Positions 4,891-62,264 of a stretch of DNA of 64,000 nucleotides are shown in pieces. How positions within the stretch are numbered: the first letter of the stretch is position 1; the number at the start of each line of letters is the position of its first letter. Source of the stretch: Mesodorylaimus sp. YZB2_4 (lineage: Eukaryota; Nematoda; Enoplea; Dorylaimida; Dorylaimidae); assembly GCA_030248295.1 (NCBI GenBank), contig JASANH010001196.1:163655-227654 (forward strand). The letters run 5' to 3'. The translations under genes and the position numbers were made by a program. The notes under the pieces were generated by a model. It did no database searches. It saw nothing but the letters and a program-made list of their open reading frames with translations, and was not told the origin of the DNA.

Positions 4891-5017
4891 GGAATGGGCC
4901 GATCCTGGAGGTACTGCAATACCAGGCCAACCCGCGGCGAGGGCGGAGCAAGCCCCAACACCTCGCCAAGGTTCCAAAAATCAGGTTAATCTCAAAGTGA
5001 CCACGTGGGCCACATAT
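4891..5017 (-). pseudogene. U2 snRNA, 5'-truncated copy 2
   Basis: This copy matches the 3' two-thirds of the other U2 genes, including the Sm-type site and stem IV. Homology stops at 5017, so about the first 64 nt (stem I, branch-point recognition region and promoter) are missing. The 3' flank (4680-4870) is still shared with the other units, apart from an AGCAT microsatellite insertion near 4830. It cannot make functional U2. Confidence 0.9.
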
Positions 5018-5489
5018 TTCTAAAGTGCTGACCCAGTGCAGTATAAAAATGTGTTCATTTGGGATACCTCGTTTCCAAGCATTGGGTCCAGTTTGGTTGG
5101 AGATTTTAGCCTCTCACCTTTGAGCCTGCACTCGTTGACGGCATAAATTTAGTGTGCTACTCACCATGAAACGATGGGCAATCAAACCATACAGGGTGCA
5201 CTATTGCAGGGAGGTCAAGTTGAAGAAAAGTTTTCACTCATACTCGAACATGATCATACTCGAACATGATTTTAAGGAGTTCCTCGCATCGCTGTTGAAT
5301 AAGGTCACTGCAGACAGTTCAATCCATCAGTGGTTGGGGGGTGCTGCTATCTTAAACAAGGGAAGGGCGATGTCAGGATCATACAAATAAAGCATTGGAA
5401 TTTGCAAAGGCGTAGAAGAGTTCCCTCATATCGCAGGAAGCATAGATCCTGTAGAGAGGGTTCGTTGAGCATTAGCTTCCCCCTGAGGG

Positions 5490-5679
5490 GAATGGGCCGA
5501 TCCTGGAGGTACTGCAATACCAGGCCAACCCGCGGCGAGGGCGGAGCAAGCCCCAACACCTCGCCAAGGTTCCAAAAATCAGGTTAATCTCAAAGTGACC
5601 ACGTGGGCCACATATCAGAGATTAAGCTGATAAGAACAGATACTACACTTTGATCTTAGCCTAAAGGCCGAGAAGCGAT
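5490..5679 (-). ncRNA. U2: U2 spliceosomal snRNA, copy 3
   Basis: This is nearly identical to copy 1 over its full length. It starts at 5679 and keeps the branch-point pairing element, Sm-type site and stem IV. The upstream 170 bp and downstream 230 bp are also shared with copy 1, giving a conserved block of about 600 bp (5258-5860 versus 3410-4000) inside a 1.85-kb repeat unit. Confidence 0.95.
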
Positions 5680-5850
5680 GCCAGACTTTGCTCGACTGCC
5701 ACACTATGTACGACCGAGAAACATCAGGCCGACTGGTCGTCGAGGGAGACGTCGGGCGCGTATCGACTGACCCTGGCTCTGTGGCGCTTGGCGTGGCCGT
5801 TGTGTGCACGTTCGTCGCAGTCGTGCGTCTTCTCTGTGCAAACAGAGAAC
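5680..5850 (-). promoter_or_regulatory. Conserved U2 upstream region of copy 3
   Basis: Counterpart of the 3831-4000 region, with the same blocks at the same spacing from the RNA start. It diverges beyond about 5850. Confidence 0.5.
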
Positions 5851-6433
5851 CCACGCTAGGCTGATGTGCGTGGGATCCTCTGTCGATGAGCGGCACACTG
5901 GCGCAACAAGTTTTGAGTATTAGTGCTCTCGGATAGGCGCGAGGGTGCGCTCCCAGGGTTATGCCTCTACACGGAGCGATTTCTTTCTTCCTTATGATCG
6001 CTTCTGTTTTGGCCATTGTTCACTTGAGTGGATTCGATACTCTTGTGGGCAATGTAAGCTTGCCGTCCTGTGTAACTTCGGCTGGCAGATCAATATTATC
6101 CATCAATTTCAACCAAAGCTAAAAAAATACAAGAATAATTTATGAGGTCTTCAACATAGAAATGAATGCAGTAGTACAAAATTATGAAACACTGGCTAGG
6201 TTTTCAAAAGTTTGTAAAAAAACAAGAAACTTTGTGGGAAAATGTCTGGCAAGGGTTCAAACTCCCACAAGTATTTGCGCACAGCTGCTGTATTTTAGAG
6301 GTTCGTCTGCAAGAAGCGGGAGAGCAGACCCTGGAGCAAACCTTGCGCCAGGGTGCTGCTCATCGACAGAGTATCCCACGCCACTTCCAATGTACGCGTG
6401 GGTTCTCTGTTGCCCAGAGAACGTGCGTCGACT
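5815..6433. mobile_element. Inverted-repeat element, about 0.6 kb
   Basis: The segment 5815-5907 (CAGAGAACCCACG, CGTGGGAT, TCTGTCGATGAGC) recurs reverse-complemented at 6338-6430. The two arms face each other around about 430 bp without a recognised gene. It is probably a decayed DNA transposon or foldback repeat. Confidence 0.5.
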
Positions 6434-7367
6434 AGTATGCATGGCTGTGTATACTGTACAGTATGTGATAAAGCAGACTAACAGAAGGGGACACTGGACA
6501 CTCGAGCGACCAGGGCCTTCGATTAGGGCAGTAATCTCATAACTTAATGAACATCAGCTCGCAGTGGTTTCAAAAAGGCTGGTCCGACAAACGCTGACCC
6601 CAAGTGGAAAAGTGGTTTTTTGGGTTAGGTTCAAAAAACGTCAACCTCCACGACATAAAACCACTCTGCCTGGAAATGACCCAGCCCAACCCAGAAAACC
6701 CCAAAAATGGTTGATTTTTAAGACCCAGTGTCAGACCTGGAGCTTTTCAACCCACCTTACTGGTCCATGCGGTCCATCAGCATGTGCTCAATAGTACCGG
6801 CACCACATATGTACAGTAGTAACACTCATTGTCATTTCGGAGACCCCATAGTCACCTCCCCTCACCATTTGCCCATGTGTCTTCAACCTCCTTCCTTCTG
6901 ACGTCCCTTTTGGATGGTCCTTTAAGAAAACAAATATTGGGAAGCGCTAAAGCTTTAAGATTTTTAAATTCAATGTTTCGATTGGAACTCGATATTTTAT
7001 TATTGCAGTGTTTTTGCATACATCACTCAGGCAGGTGCTATTGTAGTCGTCGGACGTGAAAATCAATCAATCTGCTAGAAACCGGCGACAGGCAAGCGAG
7101 TTGTAAAAATCAGTTTCAGATATGCTCAATGAGCTGTAAAAACTCGTTCACCTGAAACTATATTTTACGCAGCTGAGCAGGACCGTGATACTGTAGTTCA
7201 GTCGTTATTTGCCAAAAGGAATGAAGAAATCTCGCAAAATTTTTCGATTTAACAATATCTGCCAAATTTTTTAGCTTTTGTCCAGCACCTTCGTATTTAA
7301 AAAAAATACATTTCCTTTTATGGGAAGATTTATATAATACGGCGATTCCGATTTGAAATAGTACGAA
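6434..7367. other. No gene recognised
   Basis: Between the inverted-repeat element and the THAP gene I find no exon with good borders. The promoter of the THAP gene should lie in the last few hundred bases but shows no motif I can name. Confidence 0.35.
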
Positions 7368-10300
7368 ATGCCAACATCTTGTTTCGTGAAACAATGTTCA
7401 AGTATGTATGGAAAAAAGAACGTCAGTTTTCATCGAGTGCCGAGGCGTCAACCGAATCGTGAAGTTTGGATCCGAAATATAAATCGTCCATCAAAAAATT
7501 GGGACAATGTCTACGTTTGTTCAAGGCATTTCATCGACGGCATGCCCACCCCAGCAAATCCCTATCCAGTTTTACATATGAATGGATATCATCTTATCAA
7601 AAAGGAAGAAATCCCTGAAACGGCCCCAATGTATAAAAAATTATTCGATCTGTCTTCCAAAGACGATGAATTAGATCCTAAACCTAAACGACCTAGAATT
7701 GCCAAGGACCCGTCACCGAGTGTGTCGCAATCGGACCCATCACCGATGCACTGGGCTTGGTTCGAAGGCAACGATGCCCGCACGAGACATTACACTGGCA
7801 TGGTTTCGTTCGATCAATTAGCACAAGTTTTTAAAAAAGAAATCGCTCAAAATGCCGCCAAATTGTTGCTGATGGCCAAGCAAGAGGCCGGCGAAGTAAA
7901 AAGGTAAGCGCGACTTCATATTGACTAGATCCACCCTCTATCGCCATCAGGTGTCTATTTCTGAAACTGAATGTCATTGGCAGGTAATGTTACACTTTTC
8001 ATCAGCGCAAACGTTTGTGTGGGCGTGACGGGAGCCAGCATCGACTGATCCAACCGATTTGCTTCGCTGCTGCGAAAAATAAAACATTGATGGGATGACG
8101 TTTTTGGCAGTGCGTCCTCACCAACGCTCTGTTTCCTCGCTGTCACTCTGTCAGGCCACTCCAAAGAACAAAGCGAACTAGGCGCATAAAGCGAGATGAA
8201 ATGCTGCTGTGAGAGAAAAACGGAAATTTTCACCACCATAGTATGGCACACCATGTCATTTTGCAGAGATAAGCGCAAAAAAATTTAGTTGCAGATCCAG
8301 CAGTCGGATCGGATCCACCCTTCGTATTGGCGGATCGGTCGATAGGAGTGAGTTTTTTGGTCCCGCGCCCGCCCGCAGCTGCCTGATTGTGAGTGGGGTG
8401 TGTGTTGCCACCCGCAATCAAGAAAAGCCATGCCCACTCGCCCCATCGTAAAACAGCTCCAGGCTTGCCCAAAAAGTCTTAAAAACACAATATCAACGTT
8501 AGCTCACTGGAATGCAGTAGTATTCTCCCAGATTACATGGGCTTGATTCCACCCAGCGGTTACTTCTCAAGCACATGGCATCGACTGATCCGACCTTAGG
8601 CCTGGATCCTGATCCAATGCAGGGCTGGCCCGATTCCAGTCCGATCTGACCGATACGCTTCAAAAAATTAAAGATTGATGAGGATGATGTGTTTGGCAAC
8701 GAGTCCTCACCAACCTGCGAGGAAACCGGCTGATCCAGGATGCGGACTGTATTGGGAGCCTATCCTCCCATGGGATCGGTTCGGGGAGATAGGTGGATCA
8801 GTGAATTGGGGACGCAGGGAGGGAGTACTTTTCGAGCGGGACCCGCTTGGCTCCCGCAGCCCGAGAGTTTCATTCTCACTCCCGCCCGCCTCTCCAAAAG
8901 ATGACTCCCTCCCAGCTAAACTCTGGCGGGACCCATGGACATTGCCTCATATGCGCCAATGTGGGCTAGGCGGGTTGGATGTGGGAAAACGATCATAAGA
9001 ACTCGTCTGTTTTGCTCAGCACATAATTTCTTTTCTACCAGTCACTCAAAATCTGATCTTGTGCCATTCGAGAGATAATCGTGCTGAAAAATGGGGGCTC
9101 TAAACCAGCCCATTTCCAGCATTGTTTTTCCCAAATTCATCGTTCCAAAAGTCGCATGAAATCGCAAAACTAAAATTTCTGCAGCACACATCGATTTCTG
9201 GTTTTCTAAAGCTTTATGGGTGAGATAAATGCTGTATGTACTGTATACTGTATTTGACAATTTTTGAAATCTTTTAAATGCTTACATAGACTTATTGTGA
9301 CCGTACATAGACTTGAAATGCTTACATAGAAATATTCAGTCGACTGAAAAATGTTATTTTTGATGTGATACTTCTTTTACTGTAGATCTTTAGAGTTGCA
9401 TAAAGTCAGATTCCGGAATATCTGCATCGGGATTGGGATCCAGGCTGAGGGTCGGATCGGTCGATGCTGGAATCTGAGTGCGCCAATTTTTTGTAAGATT
9501 AGCCTATCGACTCGATTTGCCACTTTCAGTACAGACGGAAAAAACTGTCAACGCTAACGGCTAGTAGCGGGAATCTAAATCCAGATCAGACTGATTGTAA
9601 GAATCCAAAAAATGTTGAGCAAGATTCTGGAAAGGTTGCGAAATAAAGTACATAAAACTGGAACGCTAAGCGCCAATAGTGGTTGCGGGAGCTAAAGGCG
9701 CCAATCAGCGCTAACCAAATTAACGCTCGTTGCGATTAGCGGTTTCACATGCAATCTGTCGTGTTTCCGCTAGTGAGCGCTAATACCTTTGCAAATTCGA
9801 TTTGCTTGCCATAGCTGGGATGGTTTTGACTGAGTGAGCGGGGTCGACATTAGTCATGCATGCAGTTTACCTTATGCGGCGGACAAAGTGACCACCTGTC
9901 GCGAAGTAGTTAGCGCTCACTAGCGGAAACACGACAGATTGCATGTGAAACCGCTAATCGCAACGAGCGTTAATTTGGTTAGCGCTGATTAGCGTTCCTC
10001 GACCCATTAGCTCCCGCAATCACTGTCAGCGGTTAGCGTTCCAGTTTTATGTACTTTATTTCGCAACCTTTTCAGAATCTTGCTCAACATTTTTTGGATT
10101 CTTACAATCAGTCTGATCTGGATTTAGATTCCCGCTACCAGCCTTTAGCGTTGACAGTTTTTCCCGTCTGTACTGAAAGTGGCAAATCGAGTCGACAGGC
10201 TAATCTTACAAAAAATTGGCGCACTCGGATCCCAGCGTCGACCGATCCGACCCTCAGCCTGGATCCCGATCCCGATGCAGATATTCCGGAATCTGACTTT

Positions 10301-12608
10301 ATGCAACTCTAAAGATCTACAGTAAAAGAAGTATCACATCAAAAATAACATTTTTCAGTCGATTGAATCGCTATGTAAGCATTGCAAGTCTATGTACGGT
10401 CTTAATAAGTCTATGTAAGCATTTAAAAGATATCAAAAATTGTCAAATACAGTATACAGTACATACAGCACTTATATCACCCATAAAGCTTTAGAAAACC
10501 AGAAATCGATGTATGCTGCAGAAATTTTAGTTTTGCGATTTCATGCGATGATCCTAACCGATCCCAAGCCAGAAACTGTGTACAAAATTCTGCGCAATCT
10601 TGTTCCGCGCTGATTGAAAAAATTCCGATTTCAGATTGTTTTTACATTTCCTATTTTCAAAAGTACCATAAACGACAGGTCTCTTTTCTTTCTTTAGACA
10701 AACGAAAGCATATTTTTAGACAAAGAAAACTTGTTGTAACCAGTCGCTTTCACAGGTTTCTACCAGCCTGATAGAATGAATTCAAAGAAGGTTTTCGAGG
10801 ATTAAGAACAGAATTCTTAGAGATTTGAAGAAGATTTTGCACACATTTTTTGCTACCAAACTGGATACATAAGTAATTTTCAATCCTGAAGCTTAATTAC
10901 TCAACACTGCATGCTACATATCCTAACGCAAAATCCACGCTGTGAAAAATTTTTTACTGGGCTACACTGAATATCCTACTTATCCCTTCAGGCCCAATAA
11001 GCGATTTAGGCATGGGGATTCTGCATGAATAAATACAAAAGCACGCTAGCTAGGCTAGTCTGTTTTCGTAGTCTGTAGCAGCGCTGGGGGTGGAAGAAAA
11101 GCTCGTCGTAGCATAGCGGTTATCAACGTCTGCCTCTCACGCTGGGTGCGCACTTAGAGGGAAGGGTTCGACTCCCGCCTGGGTGAAATTGATTGTCAAT
11201 ACGCAGCCATGGCTCCTAACCCTCGAGTCAGCTGCGTAGTTCTTGGCCAGGGGTAAAGCATGACATGGCATGAGCTGGCTTGGCTTATCTATATCTGGCC
11301 TGTATCAGAACTCTTTTTTTTTAGATCAAGTTTCAAGTCATATATAATAATCGATAATTGGGAAAATATCAAAAAAACTGTATGACTGAAAAGTGTGCTT
11401 CAGTGAGGTAAAAAGGCCCATACGCAAAACACAGAAAAATCCTGATCCCAATTGGGATCGCCCTGATCCTGATCCCAACTTATCCGTAAGCTCCTTATTG
11501 ATTTCTTATATTTCCCATTGCATCTGATTTCTCTCTGACCTCTGACACCAATTCGATAATTCACGTGCATGATGTCATAGAGACCATGATTATGGGAGAG
11601 AACCCAAATTTCAGAGGAGTGCGTACCAAATTTGAGGATTCAGGGGAGGCTTTTAAAAGATTAGGAGGGCGCTGGGAACCCTGATTTCCGCAGAAAGTTA
11701 ACATACGCGTGTTTTTCAAGCGGGTAATGCGCGGGAAATTTAAAATGCCGATCCGGCCGATCCACCCCCGGATTGGTCGATGCTGGCTTGGATCCTACGT
11801 GGTTTACTAGTGGTTTAACAGCGTCACAAATGGACATCCTGCGCCAGATTTCTAGTGTCAGCTTTTCAGGCTTGACCCACGCGATGAATTTTTGCTTACA
11901 TTAATTAAAATTCGTCTTAATTACGACAACACTCAATTAGCCAAATCGTACGATACCAGCGATTCGCACATTTCTCTTTTGTTAAGCGTTTGGATTCCAT
12001 TCTTAGCCAATAAATGGCGATCGTGGATGATGTGGTTGGTTCGTGAGGATCAACGTCGAATTACATGCTCTTTTTCATTTCCACGCTGCATCGGCATCGA
12101 TTGCTTCGAGATCAATATCGAAAAACCAACTGGAACTAAGCAAGAACAACTTGTTTATTTGAATCGATATAAAAATCGATATACGATCAAATTTCTAGTT
12201 TGTTTTTCTTTGGATGGTACAATCCTGTACATATCGCCCGCGTACGGTGGTCGAACATCCAATGTGCACATCGTCAAAGAGTCACGCGATGGTATTTTAT
12301 ATAATTTAGTTCATGGCGATATATTATTGGCCGATACTAGCTTTCCTGTCAAGGAATTCCTATTATCGCCCTTTAGTACTGAAGTATTGATGCCAAAATT
12401 TTTGAATTTGTCGCGATTTTCTCGTTCAGATCTCGAGTACGCTAGGAAATCGGCATCGGCTCGTGTTTTGGAAAGTGTGGTTGGAAAATTACGAAAGTTT
12501 CGTATGTTACACGATGATTGCAGTTTAAATTTATTGCGTTATATGGACGATGTTAGCACAATTTGTTGCGCTATGGTGAACATGAATTCGACTGTGTGCA
12601 TTGTGTGA
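7368..12608 (+). CDS. THAP + HTH + DDE_Tnp_4 transposase-like protein, two exons
   Basis: Exons are 7368-7903 and 11870-12608. The first ends in phase 2 at AG/GTAAGC and the second begins after TTTTCAG with one completing base. Together they make 1275 nt, 424 aa. Residues 1-80 are a THAP zinc finger: M-P-x2-C5-x4-C10, a Trp in VWIRN, then C-x2-H in VCSRHF. Residues about 180-225 resemble the HTH that precedes DDE_Tnp_4 domains (LDPRDEFLLTLIKIRL). The rest is an RNase-H-like DDE_Tnp_4 domain: first Asp in GIDCFEI, second in LLADTSF, and a probable Glu in ARVLESVVGKLR. Such genes act as DNA transposases or domesticated DNA-binding proteins. No TIRs bracketing the gene were found, so domestication is possible. 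The 3966-bp intron holds a 1.4-kb near-palindrome and a SINE. Confidence 0.82.
9152..10548. mobile_element. Long near-palindromic element in the THAP gene intron
   Basis: The arms 9152-9783 and 9910-10548 are reverse complements with few mismatches and small indels, around a 126-bp spacer. The outer ends read TCGCATGAAATCGCAAAAC and its complement. No open frame of transposase type lies inside. It is best read as a foldback/MITE-type element. Transcribed as part of the intron it would form a hairpin of about 630 bp. Confidence 0.85.
11098..11290 (+). mobile_element. tRNA-derived SINE, family A, copy 1
   Basis: The tRNA-like head has an anticodon-arm-like CTGCCTCTCACGCTGGG and a B box GGGTTCGACTCCCGCC. 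It is followed by a short body and a simple tail TGACATGGCATGAG. The same structure occurs at 18.6, 22.6, 23.5 and 25.3 kb. This family is distinct from family B in body sequence and in its ATGAC-repeat tail. Confidence 0.8.
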
Positions 12609-59960: not shown

Positions 59961-60198
59961 AACCAATATCCCAATCACCTTATCGATATCCTGATCACTA
60001 GTGATTTATAAACACTAGGTTGATGTCTTAGCCACTTGAGGAATTTCCTCTCTAGAGTAATTTCTGATCACCAGATTGTTATCCTAGTCAACAGATTGGT
60101 ACCAAATTGGTATCCCGATCACCAGATTGTTATCCCAATCAACAGATTTGTATCCCGGTCGCTAGATCAATATCCCGACCTCCAGACTGATACACCAA

Positions 60199-60509
60199 CC
60201 ACTGATCGATATACCAGTCACTGATCGATATACCAGTCACTGATCGATATACCAGTCACTGATCGATATACCAGTCACTGATCGATATACCAGTCACTGA
60301 TCGATATACCAGTCACTGATCGATATATCAGTCACTGATCGATATACCAGTCACTGATCGATATACCAGTCACTGATCGATATACCAGTCACTGATCGAT
60401 ATACCAGTCACTAATCGATATACCAGTCACTGATCGATATACCAGTCACTGATCGATATACCAGTCACTGATCGATATACCAGTCACTGATCGATATACC
60501 AGTCACTGA
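60199..60509. repeat. 19-bp satellite array
   Basis: About 16 head-to-tail, almost identical copies of CACTGATCGATATACCAGT. Degenerate relatives (GATCACTAGATCGATATCC-like words) extend outward to about 59960 and 60640. Each unit contains the palindrome ATCGAT. Confidence 0.95.
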
Positions 60510-60702
60510 TACATTTTCCAATCACTGATCAATTTTCCAATCACTGATCAATATCCCAATCACTGATCAATTTCCCAATCTCTGATCGATAGGCTGGTCA
60601 CCAGATCGATATCCTGATCACTAGATCGATACCCCTAGCTGACACCTGGGCCGTCCTACCCTTCAAAATATTCTGTGTTATGGCAGTCTGTCGAGCTAAC
60701 TA

Positions 60703-61104: not shown

Positions 61105-62264
61105 TCAGGCATTTATGATTGCGGATATGAAGGCAGATATTGATCTTTGGCCAATTTCATTCAAGTGCAAACCATCTCGGCTTAGATGGGCATCAGTCAA
61201 AAGAGAGAACGAGTCGAAAACTAAAATTTTTCTCGCATCTTCTCCAATGACTGCTTTGGCTTCGTATAAGTCCGTGTGATTTCGCTGAACTTTTCTAAAG
61301 AAAATGCTAGAATGCAGAGGCGTTTTTGTCAGCAAGGATATTTACCGTCTCAAAAAATCATCCCCAGATCTTGGAAAAATGGAGAATACGCCGACGTGTA
61401 AATCAGGAATCGCTCTTATCATTGCCCGGGCTCCACTTATTATATTTTGCGCAATCTAGTAAAAATGCAGAAAAATGCATTGAAGTTGAAAAATGACTAA
61501 TTTTACTTACTTTTCCCGGTTTATTATAGACTTTTCCTTCTCGATCGACGAGATCATTCGTTCCAGCGACAATAAAGGCCCATTGGGTTCCTGGTCCGCA
61601 AACAACATGGGCGATGGTCATGACAAATTGGGCGTTTGCACCAGGTAGTGTTGCAGTCCGAGCATTTTCAACCAATATGTTCCTCGTCAGTGAATCACCA
61701 ACAATGACATTTTTTGGAAAGCAGCTAATGCTCGCCAAAAAGCACGATCTCAAATACATTAAAATTTTGCCGGCTTCATTATTTTCTATAAAATGGCAGA
61801 TGTACATGAGTGAAGGAATAAACCATGCAAAGTTTCATACCATTCCCCCAGTACTTATCGTTTACATTTTCTTGCAAAATTTTATTACCAGTCGATAATA
61901 AATAATCGCGCAGATCTCGGTTTTGACTGAACTGAAAAAGTAATATGATTAAACTTTTGTCTTCACCAAATAAAATATATGAGGTAAAATACAGTACTTT
62001 TTCAAAATCTATGCGAAGCATGACGAGTGATTTAATTTGATCCCAATTTCGTGATTTGATTCGTCGTCCGAGCTGCTTCGCGATTACTGGATCGTTTGTC
62101 GAACAAATTTGAACTGATTCGTTGAAAGCCCCGTGCGCACGCGACTTTACGTACTGATAAGCAATTTCGGCCGACGGAAATTGAAAACCAAACAAACGAA
62201 TCTTTGAAGGATAAAAATGAGACAAAATGTGGCATTTGCCTTTGAATAAAATAACATCCGACAT
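61105..62264 (-). CDS. NADAR + SGNH/GDSL hydrolase fusion protein, 5 exons, copy B
   Basis: Exons: 62264-61998, 61931-61841, about 61724-61511, 61455-61346, 61306-61105. Exons 1-2 encode a NADAR (YbiA/DUF1768) domain: FYPSKIRLFGFQFPSAEIAY, then KFSQN-type FSQNRDLRDYLLSTG and the terminal YWGNG. Exons 3-5 encode an SGNH hydrolase: block I VIVGDSLTRN (Ser), block III VAGTNDLVD (Asn), block V DGLHLNEIG (Asp, His), so all catalytic residues are present. NADAR enzymes cleave N-glycosidic bonds of riboflavin intermediates or remove ADP-ribose from guanine; SGNH enzymes are esterases. Exons sum to 884 nt, one base short, and copy A has one more base at the start of exon 3 (61712-61718), so a 1-nt frameshift or sequence error separates the domains. 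The two domains are otherwise clean. Confidence 0.78.

Follow-up and report, generated by a model that had tools for sequence, protein, structure and literature searches.

A dispersed family of NADAR-SGNH hydrolase fusion genes in a Mesodorylaimus genome, with one branch carried by a Helitron-type element

The window analyzed here is a stretch of 64,000 nucleotides from the nematode Mesodorylaimus sp. YZB2_4 (JASANH010001196.1, positions 163,655 to 227,654), part of contig C174 in a 145-Mb genome. On its minus strand, from 62264 to 61105, five exons joined at GT-AG introns encode a 310-amino-acid protein in which a NADAR domain is followed by an SGNH-type hydrolase domain. The exons of this gene, together with a decayed duplicate of it, lie at the following window positions:

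61998..62264, minus strand: exon 1 (267 nt), with the ATG and the greater part of NADAR, Glu33 (62168-62166), Lys40 (62147-62145) and Trp74 among its residues; donor GTACTG
61841..61931, minus strand: exon 2 (91 nt), with NADAR residues Glu110 (61871-61869), Asp114 and Trp117 (61850-61848); acceptor TTTTTCAG, donor GTATGA
61511..61785, minus strand: exon 3 (275 nt), with the C-terminal NADAR stretch (NNEAGKILMYLR) and the SGNH residues Gly149-Asp150-Ser151 (61699-61691), Gly168 and Asn196 (61558-61556)
61346..61455, minus strand: exon 4 (110 nt), the middle of the SGNH domain; acceptor TTTACTAG, donor GTAAAT
61105..61294, minus strand: exon 5 (190 nt including the stop codon TGA), with SGNH residues Asp288 (61176-61174) and His291 (61167-61165)
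54831 to ~54206, minus strand: decayed duplicate of the gene, reaching into the SGNH half as far as query residue 170

A sequence-only reading of the window had proposed that one exon chain joins NADAR to an SGNH hydrolase and that the Ser, Asn and Asp/His blocks are all in place, and on both points it was right (S151, N196 and D288/H291, plus G168). The splice junction it suggested, 61841/61724, was rejected: acceptor 61724 breaks the frame and a stop follows after 12 residues. The correct acceptor is 61785, after TTTTATAG, which restores both the NADAR C terminus and the SGNH frame. Removal of the introns raised the score against the NADAR profile PF08719 from 58.1 bits for the unspliced frame to 70.7 bits (cut-off 35.1; E = 2.2e-19), with the match reaching profile position 159 of 163. 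The NADAR half also scored 74.3 bits, just above the cut-off of 73.7, against NCBIfam ribofla_fusion (TIGR02464), a model of riboflavin-intermediate N-glycosidases. Translated by itself, exon 3 is open (residues 120-211) and contains the end of NADAR as well as the Ser, Gly and Asn blocks of SGNH, so that the fusion is independent of splicing. The window gene is a true fusion gene and not an accidental join.

Profile matches of the SGNH half fell under curated cut-offs for both Lipase_GDSL_2 (PF13472; 23.4 bits against 32.9, E ~1e-4) and Lipase_GDSL (PF00657; 19.8 bits against 23.6), and its putative place in the SGNH/GDSL superfamily, outside these two families, is assigned by blocks and their order only. 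The best profile match in the PDB was weak (4c1b, “ORF1-encoded protein”; E = 0.0076), as was that to platelet-activating factor acetylhydrolase (PAF-AH) chains (E = 0.069). A search of the whole genome with the PF13472 profile returned neither a match nor a candidate, probably because the SGNH half matches weakly and is split by introns.

Six NADAR residues (E33, K40, W74, E110, D114 and W117) are invariant across the three distinct intact proteins of the family described below (A, B and C; 3 of 3), as are, in order, SGNH residues G149-D150-S151, G168, N196, D288 and H291 (3 of 3). The catalytic residues of NADAR domains comprise a Glu and a Lys of the first helix, a Glu in the last strand (YbiA type), then an Asp and a Trp (PMC11543638), and SGNH blocks are described as Ser, Gly, Asn and His in that order (PMC4021074). 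In an alignment to PDB 8bau the six window residues correspond to E43, K50, W89, E125, D130 and W133 of a Phytophthora NADAR. That chain is probably the one of PMC11543638, with numbering offset by two, and we infer the residue equivalence from this alignment together with the residues named in the available text of that study. Glu at position 110 in the last strand, rather than Asp or His, marks the window NADAR as YbiA-type. From their residue sets, both domains are predicted to be catalytically active.

The fusion had been noted twice in the window, which was taken to argue against an accidental join. The conclusion stands, although the second copy was rejected as independent support because it is a decayed duplicate, in which ATA replaces ATG and the model contains two frameshifts. 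Its counterpart on contig C742 reaches residue 248 with one stop and one frameshift, and a piece of exon 5 lies 2.5 kb off. The intact gene has a near-identical allele on contig C621, with four non-synonymous and no synonymous differences. Compared with the C742 relic, the window gene showed 29, 33 and 67 differences at codon positions 1, 2 and 3 (of 248, 248 and 247 sites; P ~4e-5), with a dN/dS of 0.26 (NADAR 0.32, SGNH 0.22). Compared with the window relic, the corresponding differences were 24, 31 and 49 (P ~0.008), with a dN/dS of 0.38 (NADAR 0.34, SGNH 0.53); because the two relics are allelic, these two results amount to a single comparison. In the introns, the window gene and the relics differed by 21-22%. 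The reading frame of the window gene has therefore evolved under purifying selection, and since each comparison has a relic on one side, the intact gene is probably more constrained than these ratios suggest.

A genome search with the window protein gave 77 exon-level matches. From 23 genome pieces, 25 spliced-alignment models were built, of which 17 span both NADAR and SGNH and the other eight hold at most one domain. The architecture was thus found again in relatives, a finding that the sequence-only reading had named as one that would support it, with all of those relatives coming from the same genome. Four of the 17 two-domain models (L039, L042, L048 and L049) are free of stops and frameshifts up to the C terminus; L039 is the C621 allele, and L048 and L049 encode one protein. 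The remaining 13 are damaged or partial, some of them at contig edges, and in one (L047) the last piece of the model is sequence of a neighboring SET ORF and not of a fusion gene. This leaves three distinct intact proteins: A (the window gene and its C621 allele), B (C930; 55% identical to A) and C (C289, the same as C929; 39% identical to A). Pfam found both NADAR and Lipase_GDSL_2 in all three of the divergent members (best E values 4e-24 and 3.8e-5). All four introns of A coincide with those of B in alignment column and phase, and three of four coincide between A and C; the fourth lies three columns off, beside gaps, with equal phase. Intron 1 is common in column and phase to members of both B and C. 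Within types B and C, dN/dS was 0.28 for the B-type pair C930 and C250 (NADAR 0.09, SGNH 0.49, the exon 3/4 model of C250 looking misplaced) and 0.27-0.41 for three C-type pairs, 7 of 14 copies having been left out of these figures for their frameshifted models (A_win2, A_C742, B_C110, B_C354, B_C313, C_C722 and C_C316). NADAR-SGNH fusion genes are a dispersed family in this 145-Mb genome.

Branch C lies in a Helitron-type context. On C289, Helitron_like_N, parts of a Pif1 helicase and a UCH domain share one open frame of 2248 codons (the Rep and Pif1 helicase regions at 2315-2893 and 5000-6745), and Rep and Pif1 likewise share one frame of 2447 codons on C280. The C289 fusion gene follows ~1.5 kb downstream of the Rep-helicase frame on the same strand. 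Copies on C289, C929, C722 and C316 share stretches of up to 7.2 kb at ~90-99.8% identity. Five copies have a common 3′ end, which meets four different flanks. Helitrons end 3′ in CTRR and insert before a T; here the end is CTAA followed by T at three of the four distinct flanks and CCAA followed by T at the fourth. The hairpin at this 3′ end is weak (5 bp) and no stronger than in shuffled sequences (z 0.07). Of 14 C-type loci (assigned by similarity; all fetched but C936, C437 and C713), seven had a helicase or USP match within ~4 kb and the other seven had no such neighbor. The fusion genes of branch C, at least, are carried as cargo by a rolling-circle element of Helitron type.

Two further features were observed around these elements. 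Between the C289 fusion gene and the 3′ end of its element (L048:5122-7277), a ~1.75-kb segment, AT-rich by eye, is enclosed by ~200-bp inverted repeats whose arms are 98-100% alike. L048 and L049 have this segment in one orientation, whereas L051, L052, L057 and L058 have it in the other, which gives it the look of an invertible segment. Frames of Helitron type that include a UCH/USP-like part were also seen in L048:1-1746 and on C506, C767, C628, C203, C67, C851 and C611, several of them long and open (1252-2447 codons). Relative to the L048 query, the helicase part of the others was 43-45% identical and the UCH part, where matched, 26-30%; Pfam was run on the L048 and L051 frames only.

The context of branch B is of another kind. 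A large ORF with a SET domain, as found on C930, was matched within ~1 kb of five of eight B-type loci, and three of eight were without it; on C729 the SET ORF lies on the opposite strand, and on C313 the unit is broken up. The C930 ORF (L042:3452-5998, minus strand) is repeated in the genome, and is at least 849 amino acids long (open to 1021); its SET domain comes closest to KMT2/MLL chains. By eye, the ORF also contains a recombinase-like motif (RH...LLGH...Y); a reading of the ORF as a tyrosine recombinase was not adopted, since it came from this motif only and Pfam, PHROGs, NCBIfam and PDB searches gave no recombinase match. No clear ends of the B unit were found. Under random placement in 4-kb windows, the neighbor counts would have P ~1e-13 for 7 of 14 C-type loci and P ~1e-11 for 5 of 8 B-type loci, with the copies not independent; being copies of few elements, they indicate joint multiplication rather than repeated capture.

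Around the window gene, contig C174 gave no match to Helitron_like_N, Pif1/USP or the SET ORF, and by these matches the window copy is not inside a Helitron-type element. Over ~440 bp, its 5′ flank had no counterpart in the genome other than that at the C621 allele, and beyond this stretch a dispersed repeat begins. Other features noted in the window are a tandem array of a ~20-bp unit (ACTGATCGATATACCAGTC, by eye) 3′ of the fusion gene at 60180-60520, a DDE_Tnp_4 transposase frame at 11856-12605 and a THAP-domain frame at 7362-7904.

NADAR is not confined to the fusion family, as PF08719 matched at least 75 places in the genome. The best eight (L001-L008: two on C120 and one each on C51, C267, C1066, C509, C681 and C110) all looked LINE-like by eye (8 of 8), each with an apparent ORF1 carrying NADAR next to a frame that resembles an endonuclease. 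L005, the one among them run on Pfam, showed NADAR and Exo_endo_phos, with zf-CCHC at E = 0.53 only. A NADAR tree built from 12 chosen rows placed the fusion NADARs in one group (98/96), within which A branched outside B and C (87/88), and the LINE NADARs in another (100/99). Over aligned parts, the window NADAR shared 34-36% identity with four phage NADARs and 26-31% with five LINE NADARs. A recent origin of the fusion NADAR from the LINE ORF1 NADARs of this genome was rejected on account of these separate groups and identities; two mobile lineages of one genome thus probably gained NADAR separately. At C18:335727-338081, exon-level NADAR matches suggested a gene with apparently at least two NADAR domains in tandem, possibly SNA-3-like. 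The exact canonical SL1 leader was not found in the genome, and Rfam SL1 gave no match in a search run without a working control.

Searches outside this genome yielded no relative among 86 pattern stretches from viral contigs or 96 from bacterial and archaeal genomes. Among phages, 366 records matched, and in none of them did one place cover 80% of the query; the matched part lay within query residues 1-167 in the 20 listed records.

We favor, with modest confidence, the explanation that the fusion is an accessory hydrolase of mobile elements or a domesticated descendant of one. Because the family is dispersed, with one branch in a Helitron-type element and another beside a SET ORF, this is likelier than a house-keeping enzyme. 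The window gene is one intact member of a dispersed family of two-domain hydrolases, each combining a YbiA-type NADAR with an SGNH esterase, in which the fusion most likely serves a mobile element. As no such element was detected around it, the window copy itself may be a stranded or domesticated descendant kept by purifying selection. Support for this explanation comes from the 17 of 25 models that span both domains, the three intact proteins with their shared introns and catalytic residues, the Helitron-type context of C, the SET-ORF neighbors of B, selection on the frame and the affinity of the SGNH half to 4c1b. Counted against it are the unremarkable 3′ hairpin, the SGNH scores below Pfam cut-offs and the null PF13472 genome search, the excess of non-synonymous over synonymous differences between the window alleles (4 to 0), and the C-type (7 of 14) and B-type (3 of 8) loci lacking an element neighbor among copies that are not independent. 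Mobility of the window copy in particular is unsupported, given the lack of Rep, helicase or SET-ORF matches on its contig and its locus-specific flank of ~440 bp.

How the two domains would work can be proposed from their relatives. The likeliest NADAR chemistry is N-glycosidic release of ADP-ribose or of a riboflavin-type intermediate; by further extrapolation, the domain may, in transposition or in the response of the host, free nucleic acid (at guanine) or small conjugates of ADP-ribose. The SGNH half would most likely be a lipid- or acyl-directed esterase like that of LINE ORF1 proteins, and the two would work in parallel instead of successively on a shared substrate.

A less probable, though serious, explanation is that the host gene came first: NADAR-SGNH would be an old cellular enzyme (for example, one clearing ADP-ribosylated or riboflavin-type intermediates) of which Helitrons and another repeat captured copies, introns included, with the window holding the resident locus. 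Shared intron positions, four here, are what a captured host gene normally shows; the window gene occupies a single constrained locus with two alleles, and its NADAR half passes the ribofla_fusion cut-off. A resident host lineage also fits the branching of A outside B and C, though that tree is limited to its 12 chosen rows, and the damaged or partial state of 13 of 17 two-domain models is usual for mobile copies. In the available text on texim genes in fish Helitrons, the same two readings are left open (PMC4021074).

The sequence-only reading had envisaged a two-step enzyme in which NADAR and SGNH act in turn on the same ADP-ribose or nucleoside conjugate. This is compatible with either origin, and three divergent proteins keep the domains fused, each with full residue sets for both; even so, we consider it unlikely. 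No substrate link between NADAR and SGNH was found, and the nearest solved SGNH chains, 4c1b and PAF acetylhydrolases, are weak matches. In addition, as far as the available texts go, SGNH is reported without NADAR in LINEs, near Helitrons of fish and in retroelements of rotifers, and Gypsy and LINE elements carry NADAR with no SGNH (PMC12477816); the occurrence of each domain without the other in mobile elements implies that each has separate uses. That two neighboring genes were misread as one is highly improbable, since one open frame within exon 3 spans both the end of NADAR and the SGNH Ser/Gly/Asn blocks, and B and C members preserve intron places and order.

Returning to an accessory role on mobile elements, a more specific and rather speculative version is that Helitron-type elements carry an eraser kit against host ADP-ribose and ubiquitin marks, of which the window gene would be a host-tamed copy. 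The ubiquitin protease would sit in the Rep-helicase protein and the NADAR-SGNH enzyme would be separate, its NADAR stripping ADP-ribose from the single-stranded DNA intermediate and its SGNH half cleaving ester-linked marks. ADP-ribose-removing domains are known from bacterial antitoxins, from phages and, on their own, from a few retrotransposons. A fusion kept in three branches and present on a deubiquitinase-bearing DNA transposon would suggest that ADP-ribosylation is a barrier or signal for animal mobile elements, and the window protein offers a concrete handle on animal NADAR roles outside trans-splicing.

NADAR in retrotransposons and SGNH near Helitrons are already in print; for the fusion itself we found no report in the open-licence literature, which was covered in part, and it is apparently unreported there. 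Viral NADARs are known (PMC9503650), and most bacterial NADARs stand alone (PMC11125620); some are antitoxins. YbiA and DarT-associated NADARs share the catalytic Glu/Lys set and the YbiA-type Glu in the last strand (PMC11543638, PMC11125620), and removal of ADP-ribose from guanine in DNA has been shown for other NADARs (PMC11543638, PMC11125620). Among animal proteins, nematode SNA-3 has three NADAR domains and is needed for SL1 trans-splicing; it resembles the window gene in being an animal NADAR protein and differs in that the available text mentions no SGNH (PMC9303266).

The closest parallels are on mobile elements. YbiA-type NADARs have been described in the Gypsy Pol of Ectocarpus and in ORF1 of the Tx1 LINE of Crassostrea gigas (PMC12477816), the oyster case being like the NADAR ORF1s of L001-L008. 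These share with the fusion a YbiA-type NADAR on a mobile element; in the family described here, in contrast, NADAR is fused to SGNH, the genes bear introns and the C branch is in a Helitron-type DNA element. On the SGNH side, ORF1p of the LINE ZfL2-1 is an SGNH esterase with a coiled coil, for which lipid binding and esterase activity were shown (PMC3905857), and is probably the protein of PDB 4c1b. It shares the SGNH catalytic blocks, NADAR is not mentioned in the available text, and its activity was demonstrated, whereas that of the window protein is predicted from sequence. SGNH domains are also found in rotifer retroelements (PMC5408684). The texim SGNH hydrolase genes of fish, for which a relationship with CR1 and PAF-AH esterases is stated, bear introns and lie beside Helitron coding sequence (PMC4021074). 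They are thus like the fusion family as intron-bearing SGNH genes adjoining a Helitron and unlike it in their occurrence in fish and in the lack of any mention of NADAR in the text available. Helitrons and Helentrons carry accessory OTU, SET and VTD domains (PMC4067079, PMC9741609), that is, domains of deubiquitinase type and, in some, SET, as in this genome; here, however, the deubiquitinase is of UCH/USP type rather than OTU and is followed by the NADAR-SGNH gene.
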